From Parvibaculum sedimenti (GTDB lineage: Bacteria; Pseudomonadota; Alphaproteobacteria; Parvibaculales; Parvibaculaceae): a stretch of 64,000 nt of DNA. This document shows, in pieces, positions 12,949-19,376 of the stretch; the stretch's first letter is position 1, and each line of letters opens with the position of its first letter. The stretch lies in NCBI RefSeq assembly GCF_009184905.1, contig NZ_WESC01000001.1:1-64000 (forward strand), read 5' to 3'. The notes below the pieces were generated by a model. That model saw only the letters and a program-made list of their open reading frames with translations, was not told where the DNA came from and searched no databases. The translations under genes were made by a program, and so were the position numbers.

Positions 12949-13887
12949 ATGAGCCTCAAAGTCGCGATCCAGATGGACCCGATCCATACGATCAACATCA
13001 ACGCGGATTCGACCTTCGCACTCGGTCTGGAAGCGCAGGCGCGCGGGCACAGGCTCTTCTATTACGAGCCGAAAGAGCTTTCGATGCGCGACGGCCGCGT
13101 CTATGCGCGTGGCCGCTCCATGACGCTCCGCCGCGAGATCGGCAATCATTCGACGCTGGGCAGCCTCGAAAAGATCGACCTTCACGAGGTCGACGTGGTG
13201 TTGATGCGGCAGGACCCGCCCTTCGACATGAGCTACATCACCGCGACGCATATGCTGGAGATGGTCCATCCCAAAACGCTCGTCGTGAACGATCCGGCGG
13301 AAGTCAGGAACGCGCCGGAGAAGCTTTTCGCGACGCGCTTCGAGGGCTTGCTGCCGCCGACGCTCATCAGCCGCGACCCGGAAGAGATCCGTGCCTTCCG
13401 CAGGGAGTTCGGCGACATCATCGTGAAGCCGCTTTTCGGCAATGGCGGCATGGGCGTCTTCCGCATCCGCGAGGGCGACGAGAACCTGAACTCGCTGCTC
13501 GAAATGTTCGGCCAGATGAACCGCGAACCGGTCATCGTGCAGAAATATCTTTCCGATGTGCGCAAGGGCGACAAGCGCATCATCCTTGTCGACGGCAAGC
13601 CCGTGGGCGCGATCAACCGCGTACCGGCCGAGGGCGAGGCGCGGTCCAACATGCATGTCGGCGGCCGTCCCGAGCAGTCGAAGCTCACAAAGCGCGAGCA
13701 GGAAATCTGCGAGATCATCGGTCCGGACCTGAAGAAGCGCGGACTGATCTTTGTCGGCATCGACGTCATCGGCGATTATCTCACCGAGATCAACGTCACC
13801 TCGCCGACCGGCATTCAGGAGATCGACCGCTTCGACCAGACCAACATTGCGGCGCTCGTCTGGGATGCGATCGAGGGAAGAAAATAG
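12949..13887 (+). CDS. gshB: glutathione synthetase
   Basis: 312 residues, ATP-grasp fold. GshB joins gamma-glutamylcysteine and glycine to make glutathione. Signatures: [68 protein letters not shown] (ATP-grasp loop), [20 protein letters not shown] and the metal-binding [14 protein letters not shown]. The last ~295 bp, from about 13591, recur at 15012-15311 at about 97% identity, so this gene's 3' end has been involved in a duplication or integration. The gene itself looks intact. Confidence 0.97.
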
Positions 13888-13949
13888 CGACGGGGATTGT
13901 GGTGAGGGGCACGCCGCAATCATCCCGTCTGAGGTGGTGGGAGGCTTCG

Positions 13950-14978
13950 ATGAACCATGTCGTATTGGACAAAGTTGACGAAAAGACCATTCGGAATTTT
14001 CAGAACCGATTTCTGGTCGTGCTGCTTCTCCTCGTGCCGCTGAATGCCTACCGGCTTTACCCCATGAATATGGCTGTTCCCGGGATTCAGGCTCTTGCGG
14101 TCGTCTTTCTCTTTGTCGTGAACAACTTTGCGAGGCAAAGGGTCTTTCTCACCTTCCTGATCCTTGTGACCCTCGTCAATCTCGTCGCTCAATTTTTTGG
14201 TCAGAGGCAGGATGTGATAGTCGGTGCTTTCATGCCGCTCACCTGCATGACGCTTTACTGGCATTCGGACAAGAGCTGGATTGGCGCCTTTCTCGGGTCT
14301 TATTTGCTGCTGGCGACCGGCCTCAATATCTATGAGTGGAGCGAGGCCCGAGGGCCTTACGATTTTTATGCGATGGAGCTCAAGTGCCTTCTGGCTGTCG
14401 TCTCGGCAGGCATGGTCGTTTATTACCTGGACTATGTGCACAAGCAAATGAACCAGCAGCTTGTCTTTATCAAACGTAACCGCGACTACTACAAAAGCGT
14501 CGCCGGCAGGGATTATCTGACCGGCTTGCGAAATCGCAGCGCCCTCACCGAGCTCTTCAACGCGGCGGAGAGGCGGTTCAACTCCGTCATCCTTATCGAC
14601 CTCGATGACTTCAAATCGATCAACGATCTCTACGGACACGCGATCGGCGATGACTACCTTCGTTCCGTCGCCGACGTGCTGCGCAAGCTTGAGAATGACG
14701 ATCTGGTTGCAGGGCGGCTTGGTGGCGATGAGTTCCTCGTCATGGCCTCATGTCGTGACGAAGCCGATGTCGAGGCGCTTGGCGAGAAAATCGGCGATAT
14801 GATTGCGGCAATTCGTGTTCCGTCCGCGCAGACTTTTACCGGCAGCACGGCCAGCATCGGCATGTGCTTCAGCCTTGCGGAGATAGATCTTCTGGACGCC
14901 ATCAAAGTGGCCGACAAGGAGATGTATGAAAACAAGAAGGCGCGCGCCGGCAGGTCGACGCTCACGCAGCTATACTAA
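13950..14978 (+). CDS. membrane-anchored diguanylate cyclase (GGDEF)
   Basis: 342 residues. About five or six hydrophobic segments lie in residues 24-160, with no recognisable sensor family, then a short helix and a GGDEF domain with the canonical GGDEF active site at 258-262 (RLGGDEF). It should make cyclic di-GMP from two GTP. The product-inhibition RxxD site is not seen at its usual spacing upstream of GGDEF. ATG at 13950 follows GGGAGGC. A counted line is about 47% GC, clearly lower than gshB, and the gene lies between a full gshB and a second copy of the gshB 3' end, indicating insertion. Confidence 0.9.
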   Translation: MNHVVLDKVDEKTIRNFQNRFLVVLLLLVPLNAYRLYPMNMAVPGIQALAVVFLFVVNNFARQRVFLTFLILVTLVNLVAQFFGQRQDVIVGAFMPLTCMTLYWHSDKSWIGAFLGSYLLLATGLNIYEWSEARGPYDFYAMELKCLLAVVSAGMVVYYLDYVHKQMNQQLVFIKRNRDYYKSVAGRDYLTGLRNRSALTELFNAAERRFNSVILIDLDDFKSINDLYGHAIGDDYLRSVADVLRKLENDDLVAGRLGGDEFLVMASCRDEADVEALGEKIGDMIAAIRVPSAQTFTGSTASIGMCFSLAEIDLLDAIKVADKEMYENKKARAGRSTLTQLY

Positions 14979-15011
14979 TGTCGTGAAGGCCGGCGGACGA
15001 TTCAACGGAGA

Positions 15012-15311
15012 GACGGCAAGCCCGTGGGCGCGATCAACCGCGTACCGGTCGAGGGCGAGGCGCGGTCCAACATGCATGTCGGCGGCCGTCCCGAGCAGTC
15101 GAAACTCACAAAACGCGAGCAGGAAATCTGCGAGATCATCGGTCCGGACCTGAAGAAGCGCGGACTGATCTTTGTCGGCATCGACGTCATCGGCGATTAT
15201 CTCACCGAGATCAACGTCGCCTCGCCGACCGGCATTCAGGAGATCGACCGCTTCGACCAGACCAACATTGTGGCGCTGGTGTGGGACGCGATCGAGGCGC
15301 GGCGTAGCTAG
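15012..15311 (+). pseudogene. duplicated 3' fragment of gshB
   Basis: From 15012 the sequence repeats the last third of gshB (13591-13887), offset by 1421 bp. It keeps the frame for about 98 residues and ends in its own TAG. By eye I count about eight or nine base differences over ~285 bp, clustering toward the 3' end; they change Ala to Val, Thr to Ala and Ala to Val. It lacks the substrate and ATP-binding N-terminal parts, so it cannot be a synthetase. It is either the displaced original gshB end or an imported one. Confidence 0.93.
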
Positions 15312-15379
15312 AGTCTCTATCCCCTCGACTCGCTTCGTTCAAACAGGTTGAATACGGACAAAACTGAGTAACGGGGGCT

Positions 15380-16030
15380 GTGGTGATTCATTTCAGAATA
15401 ATCCGGTATGTCACTCTGGTCTGTGGGTTCTTTCTCGCAGGCTGTGCGCCAAAAAATATCGACCAGAGCTATGCTTTTTCCCAGACCGCGGGAAAGGGGG
15501 TAGTAATTGGTTCGATTACCTATGTGGGTGCATCCTCGGCCTGTACGGTCGTTTACCGAAAGATCGGCGATACCAATATTAGCTATTTCAGCGCCGGACA
15601 TTCCGACATGCTGGTCTCGTTGGTTGCGGGTAATGACATAGAGGGGGGTGCGGACAAAGGCGATCTCTTCGCTGTTGAAGTGCCCGCGGGAGACTATGAG
15701 ATCGTGCGTTGGGCGGCTAGCAGCGGCTATGCACATATGGGATCAGCGGAGGATTTCAGTATCCACTTCCACGTGGAGCCGGGCAAAGCTGTCTATCTCG
15801 GCAATTTTTATTTCGAGGAGGCTGACAGGTTTGGTGCCACAACGACGGGTATGATCATGGATTATAGGGACCGTGCGGAGCGGGACATGAAGGTTTTTGT
15901 GAAGAAGTATCCCGGGTTTTCCAACATCAAAATTGCTTCGAGTATCGAGACGGGCCGCGTTTACAAGAATTTGGGACAAGGATCCAACGTCTCGATCGAG
16001 ATTCCGCCCATAATGGTTATCACACATTGA
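15380..16030 (+). CDS. hypothetical lipoprotein
   Basis: 216 residues starting with GTG at 15380 after a CGGGGG ribosome-binding-site-like stretch. A lipoprotein signal peptide ends in FLAGC with Cys22. The mature part is beta-rich and contains VEVPAGDYEIVRWA and VEPGKAVYLGNFYFE, a pattern seen in DUF2846-like or carboxypeptidase-regulatory-like folds; I do not recognise a specific family. GC is low (about 48-57% in counted lines). It lies in the odd patch between the gshB fragment and a dipeptidase remnant, with no partner genes. Confidence 0.65.
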   Translation: MVIHFRIIRYVTLVCGFFLAGCAPKNIDQSYAFSQTAGKGVVIGSITYVGASSACTVVYRKIGDTNISYFSAGHSDMLVSLVAGNDIEGGADKGDLFAVEVPAGDYEIVRWAASSGYAHMGSAEDFSIHFHVEPGKAVYLGNFYFEEADRFGATTTGMIMDYRDRAERDMKVFVKKYPGFSNIKIASSIETGRVYKNLGQGSNVSIEIPPIMVITH

Positions 16031-16065
16031 GCAATGCTTCGTGGTTGTGCTCCGATGGCAAATAG

Positions 16066-16479
16066 CCGGCGCGATCGACCACCTCCCTGCCGAAGGAGAA
16101 AAAGGCAGCGCGCCGCAAGCTTGCGAAGTCGCTCGGCCTTACGAGCCTCGACGCGTTCTTCGCTGCGAGCCCGGATGTGAGGACAAAATTTCGAACGGGT
16201 GTCGGGGCGATCAACAGGAAATATCCGCCTGCCACCGTCTCCGATCTCGTCGATCACGTCGACTATGCGGTGAAGCTGATCGGCATCGACCATGTCGGCA
16301 TCGCGTCGGGCTTCCAGGGCGGTGGCGGCGTCACGGGCTGGGCCAATGCGGGCGAAACCTTGAACCTGACGAAGGATCTCGTCCGCCGTGGCTATTCGCA
16401 GGACGGTATTGCCAGGTTCTGGGGCGGCAACATCATGCGCGTCATGGACGAGGTTGCCGCCGCGCGGAAAGCGCCATAG
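16066..16479 (+). pseudogene. 5'-truncated membrane dipeptidase (peptidase M19)
   Basis: The open frame after a TAG at 16063-16065 reads the last ~138 residues of an M19 (renal dipeptidase-like) zinc peptidase: TVSDLVDHVDYAVKLIGIDHVG, GGGGVTGWANAGETLNLT and RGYSQDGIARFWGGNIMRVM are family hallmarks. M19 enzymes are ~330-400 residues with metal ligands in the missing N-terminal part. The usual GSDFDG motif reads ASGFQG here, so a conserved Asp is lost too. The first plausible start is GTG at 16177. It is a dead remnant, probably left when the adjacent insertion was acquired. Confidence 0.8.
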
Positions 16480-16545: not shown

Positions 16546-17670
16546 ATGGCCGAGAGCAAGAGCGAGCGCTACAAGGAAAACCTCCAGGGCGAGATTGACG
16601 GCGCATCGCTTTATCGGTCGTTGGCGGATGTCGAGCCGGATGCGAAGCTTGCGGAGGTCTATCGGCGCCTCGCCGCGGTGGAAGAGAGCCACGCAGAATA
16701 CTGGAAGAAGCAGCTCGGCAAAGTTGGCGCGCGCGTACCCGGGCTGAAGCCGGGCTTTCGCACGCGGGCCCTCTCCTTCCTGGCGCGTCGCTTCGGCCCC
16801 GCTTTCGTGCTTCCGGTCATCAACACGCTCGAACAGGCCGATAGCGGGGTTTATGACAAGCAGCCCGAAGCCGTTGCGGGCGGCCTGCCGCAGGCCGAGC
16901 GTTCCCATGCGCGTATTCTCTCGGCCATCGCGAGCCCCAAATCCGGCCTCGAAGGTGGCACCATTGCCCGGCTCGAGGGACGCCACCGCGCCATGGGCGG
17001 CAATGCGCTCCGCGCTGCGGTGCTGGGCGCCAATGACGGCCTCGTCTCCAACATGTCGCTCGTCATGGGCGTCGCCGGAGCAGAGGTCTCGAACAGCACC
17101 ATCGTGCTGACGGGCCTTGCCGGCCTTGTCGCCGGCGCCTGTTCCATGGCCATGGGCGAGTGGCTCTCGGTCAATTCCTCGCGCGAACTCTACGAGAAGC
17201 AGATCGCGACCGAAGCGATGGAGCTGGAAGAGGTGCCCGAGGAGGAAAAGGAAGAGCTCGTCCTCATCTATCAGGCCAAGGGGCTGAGCGAGCCCGAGGC
17301 GAAGGCATTGGCCGACAAGCTTCTCTCCGACAAGAGCACAGCCCTCGATACGCTGGTGCGGGAGGAGCTTGGCATCGACCCGGATGAGCTCGGCGGATCG
17401 GCTTGGGGGGCGGCGGGAACGTCCTTCCTGCTCTTCTCCTTTGGGGCGATCTTTCCGGTGGCGCCCTATTTCTTCCTCTCCGGCTGGTCGGCGCTCATCG
17501 TCAGCCTCACCCTCAGTGGACTTGCCCTTGTGGGCATCGGTCTTGGCACCTCGCTCTTCACCGGGCGTAGCGCCGTCTTCTCCGCCATGCGGCAATTGCT
17601 GATCGGCTTTGCCGCCGCCGGCGTCACCTATGGTGTCGGGGCACTGGTCGGCGTCAGTCTCGCGGGCTGA
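16546..17670 (+). CDS. ferritin-like / VIT1-CCC1 fusion membrane protein (MbfA-like)
   Basis: 374 residues. Residues ~1-130 are a ferritin/rubrerythrin-like helical domain with GEIDGASLYRSLAD and the ExxH-type VEESHAEYW diiron motif. Residues ~145-374 are a VIT1/CCC1 iron/manganese transporter: ALRAAVLGANDGLVSNMSLVMGVAGA is the first transmembrane segment with its ion-path Asp, followed by ACSMAMGEWLSV and three C-terminal membrane segments. The closest described protein is rhizobial MbfA, an iron exporter with the same layout. I see no Irr box immediately upstream. RBS is weak (CGGAG). Confidence 0.85.
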   Translation: MAESKSERYKENLQGEIDGASLYRSLADVEPDAKLAEVYRRLAAVEESHAEYWKKQLGKVGARVPGLKPGFRTRALSFLARRFGPAFVLPVINTLEQADSGVYDKQPEAVAGGLPQAERSHARILSAIASPKSGLEGGTIARLEGRHRAMGGNALRAAVLGANDGLVSNMSLVMGVAGAEVSNSTIVLTGLAGLVAGACSMAMGEWLSVNSSRELYEKQIATEAMELEEVPEEEKEELVLIYQAKGLSEPEAKALADKLLSDKSTALDTLVREELGIDPDELGGSAWGAAGTSFLLFSFGAIFPVAPYFFLSGWSALIVSLTLSGLALVGIGLGTSLFTGRSAVFSAMRQLLIGFAAAGVTYGVGALVGVSLAG

Positions 17671-17749
17671 GTTCTCATTTCGTTCTTGCTTCGCCCTTGC
17701 CGCTTCGCTAGGGTCCTCTGTGGGCTGAGTGAGTGCGGGGGCGCGGGGC

Positions 17750-19300
17750 ATGGTTGCGCATATCGAGACGGTCGCCTTTCTGGGTGTGGAGGCGCGGCCC
17801 GTCGACGTGCAGGTTCAGATCGCGGGCGGCGCGCCCGCCTTTTCGGTCGTGGGGCTTGCGGACAAGGCGGTTGGCGAAAGCCGCGAGCGTGTTCGCGCGG
17901 CGCTCTCGGCCATCGGGCTCGGTCTGCCGCCCAAGCGCATCACCGTCAATCTCGCTCCCGCCGATCTGCCGAAGGAAGGCAGCCATTATGACCTGCCGAT
18001 TGCGATCGGCCTCCTTGTCGCCATGAATGTCATGCCCGCGCAGGAGCTTGAGCGCTTCGTCGTCATCGGTGAACTCTCGCTCGACGGCGCGATCAATGCC
18101 GTGGCGGGCGCGCTTCCGGCAGCGATTGCCGCGAATGGCAGGTCCAAGGGCCTGATCTGCCCCGAGGCTTGCGGGCCCGAGGCCGCGTGGGCAGGCATGG
18201 GCGCCGACAATCCGGGCGGCGTTCTCGCGCCTCGTTCCATCATCCAGCTCGTCAATCACTTCAAGGGAACGCAGGTTCTCGCCGAGCCCGCGCCGATGCG
18301 CGCGGTGGAAGGGCGGGCTCTTCCCGATCTTCGCGACATCAAGGGGCAGGAAAGCGCCAAGCGTGCCCTCGAAGTGGCTGCTGCGGGCGGCCATAATCTG
18401 CTGATGGTCGGTCCTCCGGGCTCCGGCAAGTCGATGCTCGCCTCTCGCCTTCCCGGCATTCTGCCTCCGCTCAATCCCCGCGAAATGCTCGAAGTCTCGA
18501 TGATTGCGTCGATCGCGGGCGAGCTGACGGCGACGGGCCTTGGCCGCGCCCGCGCCTTCCGCGCGCCCCATCATTCCGCCTCCATGGCGGCGCTGGTCGG
18601 CGGCGGCCTTCGAGCGAAACCGGGCGAAGTGTCGCTTGCTCATCGCGGTGTTCTTTTTCTCGACGAATTGCCGGAATTCCCGCGCCAGGTGCTCGACAGT
18701 CTTCGCCAGCCCATCGAAACCGGCGAGGCGGTGGTCGCGCGCGCCAATGCGCATGTCACCTATCCGGCGCGTTTTCAGCTCGTCGCCGCCATGAATCCCT
18801 GCCGCTGCGGACATGCCGGAGACGCCTCCCGCGCCTGCCCGCGTGTGCCGCGCTGCGTCTCCGATTACCAGTCGAAGCTTTCAGGGCCGCTCCTCGACCG
18901 CATCGACATCCATGTCGAGGTGCCGCCCGTTTCGCCTGCCGATCTTTCCCTGCCACCCGCCGCAGAGGGCTCGGCGGAAGTGGGTGCCCGCGTCGCGGCG
19001 GCGCGCGCGGTGCAGGAGGCGCGTTACGCGGAGCATGCGGCCCATGGCGGCCCAAGCCTCAATTCGCAGGTCGAGGGCGAATTGCTCGACAAGGTGGCCG
19101 CGCCCGACGAGGCGGGCGTAAGGCTCCTCACCGAGGCGGCGGAGCGCATGCGCCTTACCGCGCGGGGCTATCATCGTGTGCTCCGTGTTGCCCGTACGCT
19201 TGCCGATCTCGACGGCTCGGATTGCGTTCGCCGCATCCATGTCGCCGAGGCGCTGGCCTATCGCGAGCCCGTTGCCGGACGTCTTGGGGCGCATGCCTGA
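17750..19300 (+). CDS. comM: YifB/ComM family Mg chelatase-like AAA+ ATPase
   Basis: 516 residues. ComM is a helicase that drives branch migration during natural transformation in Vibrio and Haemophilus. The N-terminal Lon-protease-like S5 fold (FSVVGLADKAVGESRERV, GSHYDLPIAIGLL) leads into the AAA+ module with Walker A GPPGSGKS, the PHHSAS motif, Walker B LFLDELPEF, and the zinc-type NPCRCGHAGD...CPRVPRC segment. ATG at 17750 opens MVAHIETVAFLG, the family start. The final codons GAHA-stop are the first unit of a 19-bp tandem repeat. Confidence 0.94.
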   Translation: MVAHIETVAFLGVEARPVDVQVQIAGGAPAFSVVGLADKAVGESRERVRAALSAIGLGLPPKRITVNLAPADLPKEGSHYDLPIAIGLLVAMNVMPAQELERFVVIGELSLDGAINAVAGALPAAIAANGRSKGLICPEACGPEAAWAGMGADNPGGVLAPRSIIQLVNHFKGTQVLAEPAPMRAVEGRALPDLRDIKGQESAKRALEVAAAGGHNLLMVGPPGSGKSMLASRLPGILPPLNPREMLEVSMIASIAGELTATGLGRARAFRAPHHSASMAALVGGGLRAKPGEVSLAHRGVLFLDELPEFPRQVLDSLRQPIETGEAVVARANAHVTYPARFQLVAAMNPCRCGHAGDASRACPRVPRCVSDYQSKLSGPLLDRIDIHVEVPPVSPADLSLPPAAEGSAEVGARVAAARAVQEARYAEHAAHGGPSLNSQVEGELLDKVAAPDEAGVRLLTEAAERMRLTARGYHRVLRVARTLADLDGSDCVRRIHVAEALAYREPVAGRLGAHA

Positions 19301-19376
19301 CCCGGGGGCGCATGCCTGACCCGGGGGCGCATGCCTGACCCGGGGGCGCATGCCTGACCCGGGGGCGCATGCCTGA
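19289..19376. repeat. 19-bp tandem repeat, 4.6 copies, spanning the comM stop
   Basis: The unit GCGCATGCCTGACCCGGGG occurs at 19289, 19308, 19327 and 19346, then a 12-base partial copy at 19365-19376. The copies are perfect. Copy 1 encodes the last comM codons and its TGA, so copy number can vary without changing the protein. The unit contains the palindromes GCATGC and CCCGGG. It has no spacers, so it is not a CRISPR. Confidence 0.97.

Follow-up and report, generated by a model that had tools for sequence, protein, structure and literature searches.

Organization of the gshB locus

We have analyzed the surroundings of gshB in the first 64,000 nucleotides of a Parvibaculum sedimenti contig (NZ_WESC01000001.1, forward strand), referred to below as the window. 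The features from gshB to the VIT-family gene all lie on the forward strand. gshB (12949..13887) encodes a full-length glutathione synthetase of 312 amino acids that matches the Pfam families GSH-S_N and GSH-S_ATP, and it contains the first copy (copy A, 13591..13876) of a direct repeat. Comparison of the gshB tail with that of the relative G020 and with the genus assigns its terminal codons to a G020-like type that is linked to a GGDEF gene. An intergenic region (13888..13949), homologous to that of G020 by sequence comparison, separates gshB from the GGDEF (diguanylate cyclase) gene at 13950..14978. The product of this gene matches PF00990 (1.6e-28), contains the GGDEF motif in its translation and, as judged from hydropathy and the translation, has a hydrophobic N-terminal region. 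At 54.1%, the GC content of the gene falls below that of the window (62.9%).

The abrupt start of the second repeat copy (copy B) at 15012 suggests that the segment 14979..15011 is an illegitimate joint between the 3' flank of the GGDEF gene and the interior of gshB. Copy B together with its own genus-type terminal codons (15012..15311) is a 5'-truncated and, considering the repeat and the changes specific to B, probably dead remnant of gshB. It is followed by a putative lipoprotein gene (15380..16030; 51% GC) without a Pfam match at E <= 0.01 and by a 3' remnant of an M19 dipeptidase gene (16084..16470), which in a protein comparison corresponds to residues 285-413 of the 415 residues of the protein in the relative G015. 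This remnant is the 3' third only, and the M19 dipeptidase had no match elsewhere in its own genome. The VIT-family gene (16546..17670; PF01988) is the right-hand neighbour in G020 and G015 also. A third, degenerate gshB fragment that appeared to line up with the repeat start at 16031-16084 was dismissed as chance, because 9 of 300 shuffles, and 491 of 4630 real segments of the window, scored at least as high.

Downstream of the VIT-family gene lies comM (17729-19300), whose 3' end is overlapped by a perfect 19-bp tandem repeat of 4.8 copies at 19286-19376. comM is intact in the window but interrupted in four relatives (loci L114, L142, L159 and L140). The break is near residue 250 in G004 and G003 and near residue 311 in G053; in these three genomes an IS1595-type transposase comes after the break, with other ORFs between. 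In G001 a large serine recombinase interrupts comM near residue 229. For G003 and G001 the remainder of comM is beyond the stretch read. In Acinetobacter, comM is the target of AbaR islands, of which these breaks are reminiscent.

A direct repeat of the gshB 3' end

The segment 13591-13876 of gshB recurs at 15012-15297, with 8 mismatches over 286 nt (97% identity) and a spacing of 1421 bp. The earlier note had described a direct repeat of the last ~295 bp of gshB, bracketing the low-GC GGDEF gene and leaving the full gene with a working 3' end. The repeat is confirmed, and the gene is complete, with both GSH-S domains and the GGDEF ORF next to it. The length given was slightly generous: the repeat reaches near the end of gshB but stops 11 nt before the end of the stop codon. 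Its onset is abrupt, at GACGGCAAG (13591/15012), and the 50 bases that precede these two positions show no evident similarity to each other. From 13877/15298 onward the copies cease to match.

The mismatches (13628, 13683, 13692, 13798, 13850, 13857, 13860 and 13866 in copy A) lean toward the distal end, as had been noticed earlier. Four fall in the final 27 nt against four in the first 259 nt, a contrast with a Fisher p value of 0.0034 for a split that was picked after looking; a change-point permutation on the mismatch positions gave p = 0.026.

In a tree of the first 259 nt, copies A and B form a clade (100/93), which is joined next by G020 (99/94) and then by G015 (98/86). The branch to copy A has zero length and that to copy B a length of 0.015, so that all four changes are on B. 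Two of these, at 13628 and 13798, replace Ala by Val and Thr by Ala, respectively, and affect bases that do not vary in 29 relatives. The remaining two changes are synonymous; position 13692, where one of them lies, varies among relatives as well. Because all the changes are on B and include the two at invariant sites, B looks like a decaying or dead copy of gshB and A like the working gene.

The distal ends of the two copies are of different kinds. Copy A shares with G020 the codon GAT, the ending AAAATAG and the intergenic 3' flank. Copy B ends in GAGGCGCGGCG-TAG, close to the GAGGCGCGGCGCTAG of G015, and GAGGCGCG is found in 17 of 26 rows of relatives and is absent from A and G020. Since the last codons of B are a real genus-type end that A lacks, the locus appears to hold both a GGDEF-linked, G020-like end (A) and a genus-typical end (B), although the evidence is thin and concerns few bases. 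Raw identities over the last 39 nt are tied, at 0.846 for A with both B and G020 and 0.769 for B with both G015 and G020, so that the case for two tails rests on the last few codons and on the flank of A. The 3' flank of copy B (15312-15380) was compared with the G015 locus and with the rest of the window between 8 and 20 kb; the scores obtained were reached by 264 of 300 and 5 of 100 shuffles, respectively, so that nothing in the G015 locus matches the flank better than shuffled sequence does.

Gene order in related genomes

The comparison was made at the level of the genus, with other species. It comprises 26 relatives, several of them incomplete; gshB of G021 is cut by a contig end, leaving 25 genomes in which the end of gshB is covered. 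No second gshB match at E <= 0.001 was found in any of the 26 genomes, although several, including G020 at 57%, are incomplete, and the repeated arrangement is thus not one that the relatives all carry. When 26 loci (25 from the genus and that of G042) were compared with themselves, over stretches that extended 650 to 11,610 bases past gshB, no downstream match exceeded 32 bp.

In 23 of the 25 relatives gshB is followed within 1.5 kb by an M19 dipeptidase gene, and these genomes have the two genes without the repeat; the M19 copy of G010, one of the 23, extends beyond the stretch fetched. The other two, G018 and G020, have no M19 gene in the stretch read downstream of gshB. In G015 the order is gshB-dipeptidase-VIT, with short spacers. 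In G020, the nearest relative in the tree of gshB tails, it is gshB-GGDEF-VIT, and in the window it is gshB-GGDEF-gshB tail-lipoprotein-dipeptidase remnant-VIT. The G020 assembly is 57% complete, and its contig opens within gshB, at codon 207, which leaves 24 bases ahead of the repeat start. To the right of the GGDEF gene in G020 there is no gshB copy and VIT comes directly; on the left, the sequence stops with the contig. A search of this 57% complete assembly for M19 gave no match.

The GGDEF gene and the lipoprotein gene are both rare. Among 40 genomes of the family the GGDEF gene was detected at E <= 1e-30 in two, the genome studied here and G020. The N-terminal part of its product matched one of 289 genomes drawn from the class, its own; G020 was evidently absent from this draw. 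For the lipoprotein, matches outside its own genome were limited to G044 (28% identity) among the 40 family genomes and to a single genome (27%) among the 289 of the class.

Divergence and timing

Copies A and B show a synonymous divergence (dS) of 0.035 in their first 249 nt. The values for the window against G020 are 0.49 (gshB end), 0.47 (a cytochrome gene), 0.61 (comM), 0.73 (VIT) and 0.23 (the GGDEF gene). The separation of A and B, or their last homogenisation, is recent; on these divergences A and B either split after the window and G020 did or have been homogenised. The body identities to G020 over the first 249 nt are 0.908 for A and 0.892 for B. Neither body is G020-like, so any donor would have been much closer to the genome of the window than G020 is.

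The divergence of the GGDEF gene from its G020 counterpart (L111) is uneven. Between 13977 and 14648, 9 of 106 four-fold sites differ, compared with 12 of 48 between 14649 and 14948 (p = 0.010, with boundaries that were picked after looking); the corresponding figure for comM is 137 of 349. Relative to G020, divergence is lower over the initial two thirds of the GGDEF gene than over its last third and in the neighbouring genes. This mosaic suggests homologous exchange between the lineages at the locus. The intergenic region and the end of the GGDEF gene, which flank the low stretch, are about as diverged as the neighbouring genes. Because both sides of the low stretch have diverged in this way, the arrangement linked to GGDEF may go back as far as the split between the window and G020, with a later homologous exchange inside the GGDEF gene.

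Searches for mobile elements

No integrase or transposase domain was found in 15 window proteins, from ORFs chosen by eye between 7666 and 22829. The N-terminal part of the GGDEF protein and the lipoprotein had no match in a plasmid collection, and the DNA stretch had none among phages. In the viral_contigs collection two loci matched, at 38% and 27% identity, over the region of the GGDEF domain. Inverted repeats were considered as possible transposon ends and rejected: four pairs lie near the GGDEF and lipoprotein genes, and none is placed so as to bound either gene.

Origin of the arrangement

The explanation that we favour, with slightly more confidence than doubt, is that the locus is a recombination scar in which two arrangements of one chromosomal slot have been joined, and not an element. 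Among close relatives, the slot would have existed in both of these arrangements. One would be gshB-GGDEF-VIT, as in G020. The other would have had a gshB with the native tail, the lipoprotein gene and the dipeptidase gene; the order gshB-dipeptidase-VIT is seen in G015, and gshB-lipoprotein-dipeptidase was seen in none of the genomes examined. DNA of one arrangement would have been joined to the other by homologous pairing inside the gshB tail, and the second joint, at about 14979-15012, would have been non-homologous or illegitimate. A circularised fragment that integrated by a single crossover could have given this result, and a linear fragment acting through homology-facilitated illegitimate recombination would give the same product: a complete gshB with the GGDEF-linked end, the GGDEF gene, and then a truncated gshB tail with the genus-type end. 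Copy B would afterwards have drifted as a pseudogene. We infer from the sequence comparisons both parental arrangements, their meeting in one cell and the route by which they were joined. No source was found for the 33-nt joint (14979-15011) in the sequence upstream of VIT in the window or in that following GGDEF in G020, where 268 and 32 of 300 shuffles, respectively, reached the score.

A direct repeat of the target flanking the inserted DNA is a feature of Campbell-type integration, and the 286-nt repeat around the GGDEF gene has this form. The earlier note had proposed that a circle was integrated by a single crossover and that the tail came from another strain. The first proposal is plausible in a narrower form, in that the shape of the locus and the two gshB ends fit it, and the second may apply to the terminal codons and flank of A, which are G020-like. 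The body of the repeat speaks against the earlier proposal as it stands, for it is not foreign, A and B being sisters in the tree. Natural transformation is a possible source of the exchange. Homologues of comEC, dprA and comM are present in the genome, but the comEC and dprA matches do not show transformation, because the same searches also match controls such as E. coli.

The same pattern could have come from an old duplication followed by gene conversion, and the choice between this and the scar is a matter of judgement. Here the GGDEF gene, with a foreign gshB end, would have entered by a single crossover before the split between the window and G020, and the native end would have been left behind as copy B. 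G020 would later have lost B and the dipeptidase gene, and in the window A and B would have been kept alike except near the end. Such a history has the merit that one event accounts both for the GGDEF-linked and native ends and for a left junction common to the two lineages; conversion may also stop before the end of the homology, which fits the leftover distal mismatches. It needs, however, an extra deletion in G020, from just after the GGDEF gene to the start of VIT, and a recent conversion, while the four changes in the first 259 nt are all on B. We consider it the main, though rather unlikely, alternative.

A local origin by tandem duplication, in which the copied gshB 3' end was joined at its own end to other sequence, seems improbable. 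The copies are indeed closest to each other for all but the last ~25 nt, which the earlier note had named as the mark of simple local duplication, and over the last 39 nt A is equally near to B and to G020. Against this, B ends in genus-type gshB codons that are absent from A and that the joining of a copy of A to random sequence would not produce, and there is no second GGDEF gene after copy B.

It is quite improbable that the contig is an assembly chimera of two strain haplotypes from a mixed sample. The structure does read like the fusion of two plausible haplotypes, but the contig has 386,972 bases in a genome rated as 100% complete and 0.4% contaminated, the joint is without a run of N, and the 50 bases ahead of 13591 and 15012 offer no evident similarity for an assembler to jump on. 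Finally, site-specific integration, the other possibility raised in the earlier note, in which a cassette moved by its own or another integrase would have replaced the gshB 3' end as its attachment site, shares with the locus the general shape only (an intact gene, a cargo and a gene-end repeat) and is very unlikely, given the lack of an integrase or transposase domain in the 15 proteins scanned, a repeat that was seen in none of the 26 relatives, the presence of the cargo in G020 with no downstream gshB copy, and the lack of matches in the plasmid and phage searches.

If the locus is a recombination scar, it offers a natural example of a diguanylate cyclase gene placed beside a core gene without mobile-element machinery and with the core gene left intact, and it cautions that a gene-end repeat by itself is no proof of site-specific integration. 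In the same lineage the dipeptidase gene, usual at this slot in most of the relatives examined, has been reduced to a remnant. A more general idea, to which we give little credence, is that the slot 3' of gshB recurrently serves as a docking place in the genus, where single genes would be swapped between strains without a recombinase, anchored in the gshB tail, and where GGDEF, lipoprotein and dipeptidase alleles would compete.

Comparison with known systems

This instance is new, while the kind of recombination product is already known. Excerpts of the literature on genomic islands and horizontal gene transfer in Parvibaculum, and on partial gene duplication with single crossover, contained nothing on this locus. 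A close parallel comes from E. coli lacZ: in one experiment, the PCR product that marks a lacZ duplication was obtained from 56 of 60 clones (PMC3240628). In 14 sequenced clones the duplications measured 109-950 bp and were ascribed to single crossovers by circles that were missing part of the homologous end (PMC3240628). As at gshB, where the repeat is 286 bp, a few hundred base pairs of the target gene were duplicated around the insert; unlike that laboratory system with a plasmid, the present case is natural, its second copy has drifted and the DNA inserted is a relative's chromosomal gene.

According to the same paper, homology-facilitated illegitimate recombination has been described in Streptococcus pneumoniae, Acinetobacter baylyi and Pseudomonas stutzeri (PMC3240628). 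It resembles the reading preferred here in having one homologous anchor and one illegitimate joint. It differs in that a deletion in the recipient is predicted there (PMC3240628), whereas we see a duplication, and the anchor and donor are not observable at gshB.

Merodiploids of the pneumococcus, as described in PMC3784515, carry duplications produced during transformation, including one clone with a 3,276-bp duplication that has no flanking repeats. There, as would be the case at gshB, unequal exchange leads to a tandem duplication, but mostly with ~100-900 kb between the repeats (PMC3784515); the duplicated segment at gshB is less than 300 bp. For the T6SS clusters of Vibrio, one-sided exchange has been suggested as the origin of leftover genes (PMC5361080). 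The gshB locus has no toxin-immunity genes and no array, but it shares with the Vibrio immunity arrays, a case of sequential displacement for which those authors suggest a similar mechanism, a new gene beside a conserved anchor with the ends of older genes remaining downstream (PMC5361080).
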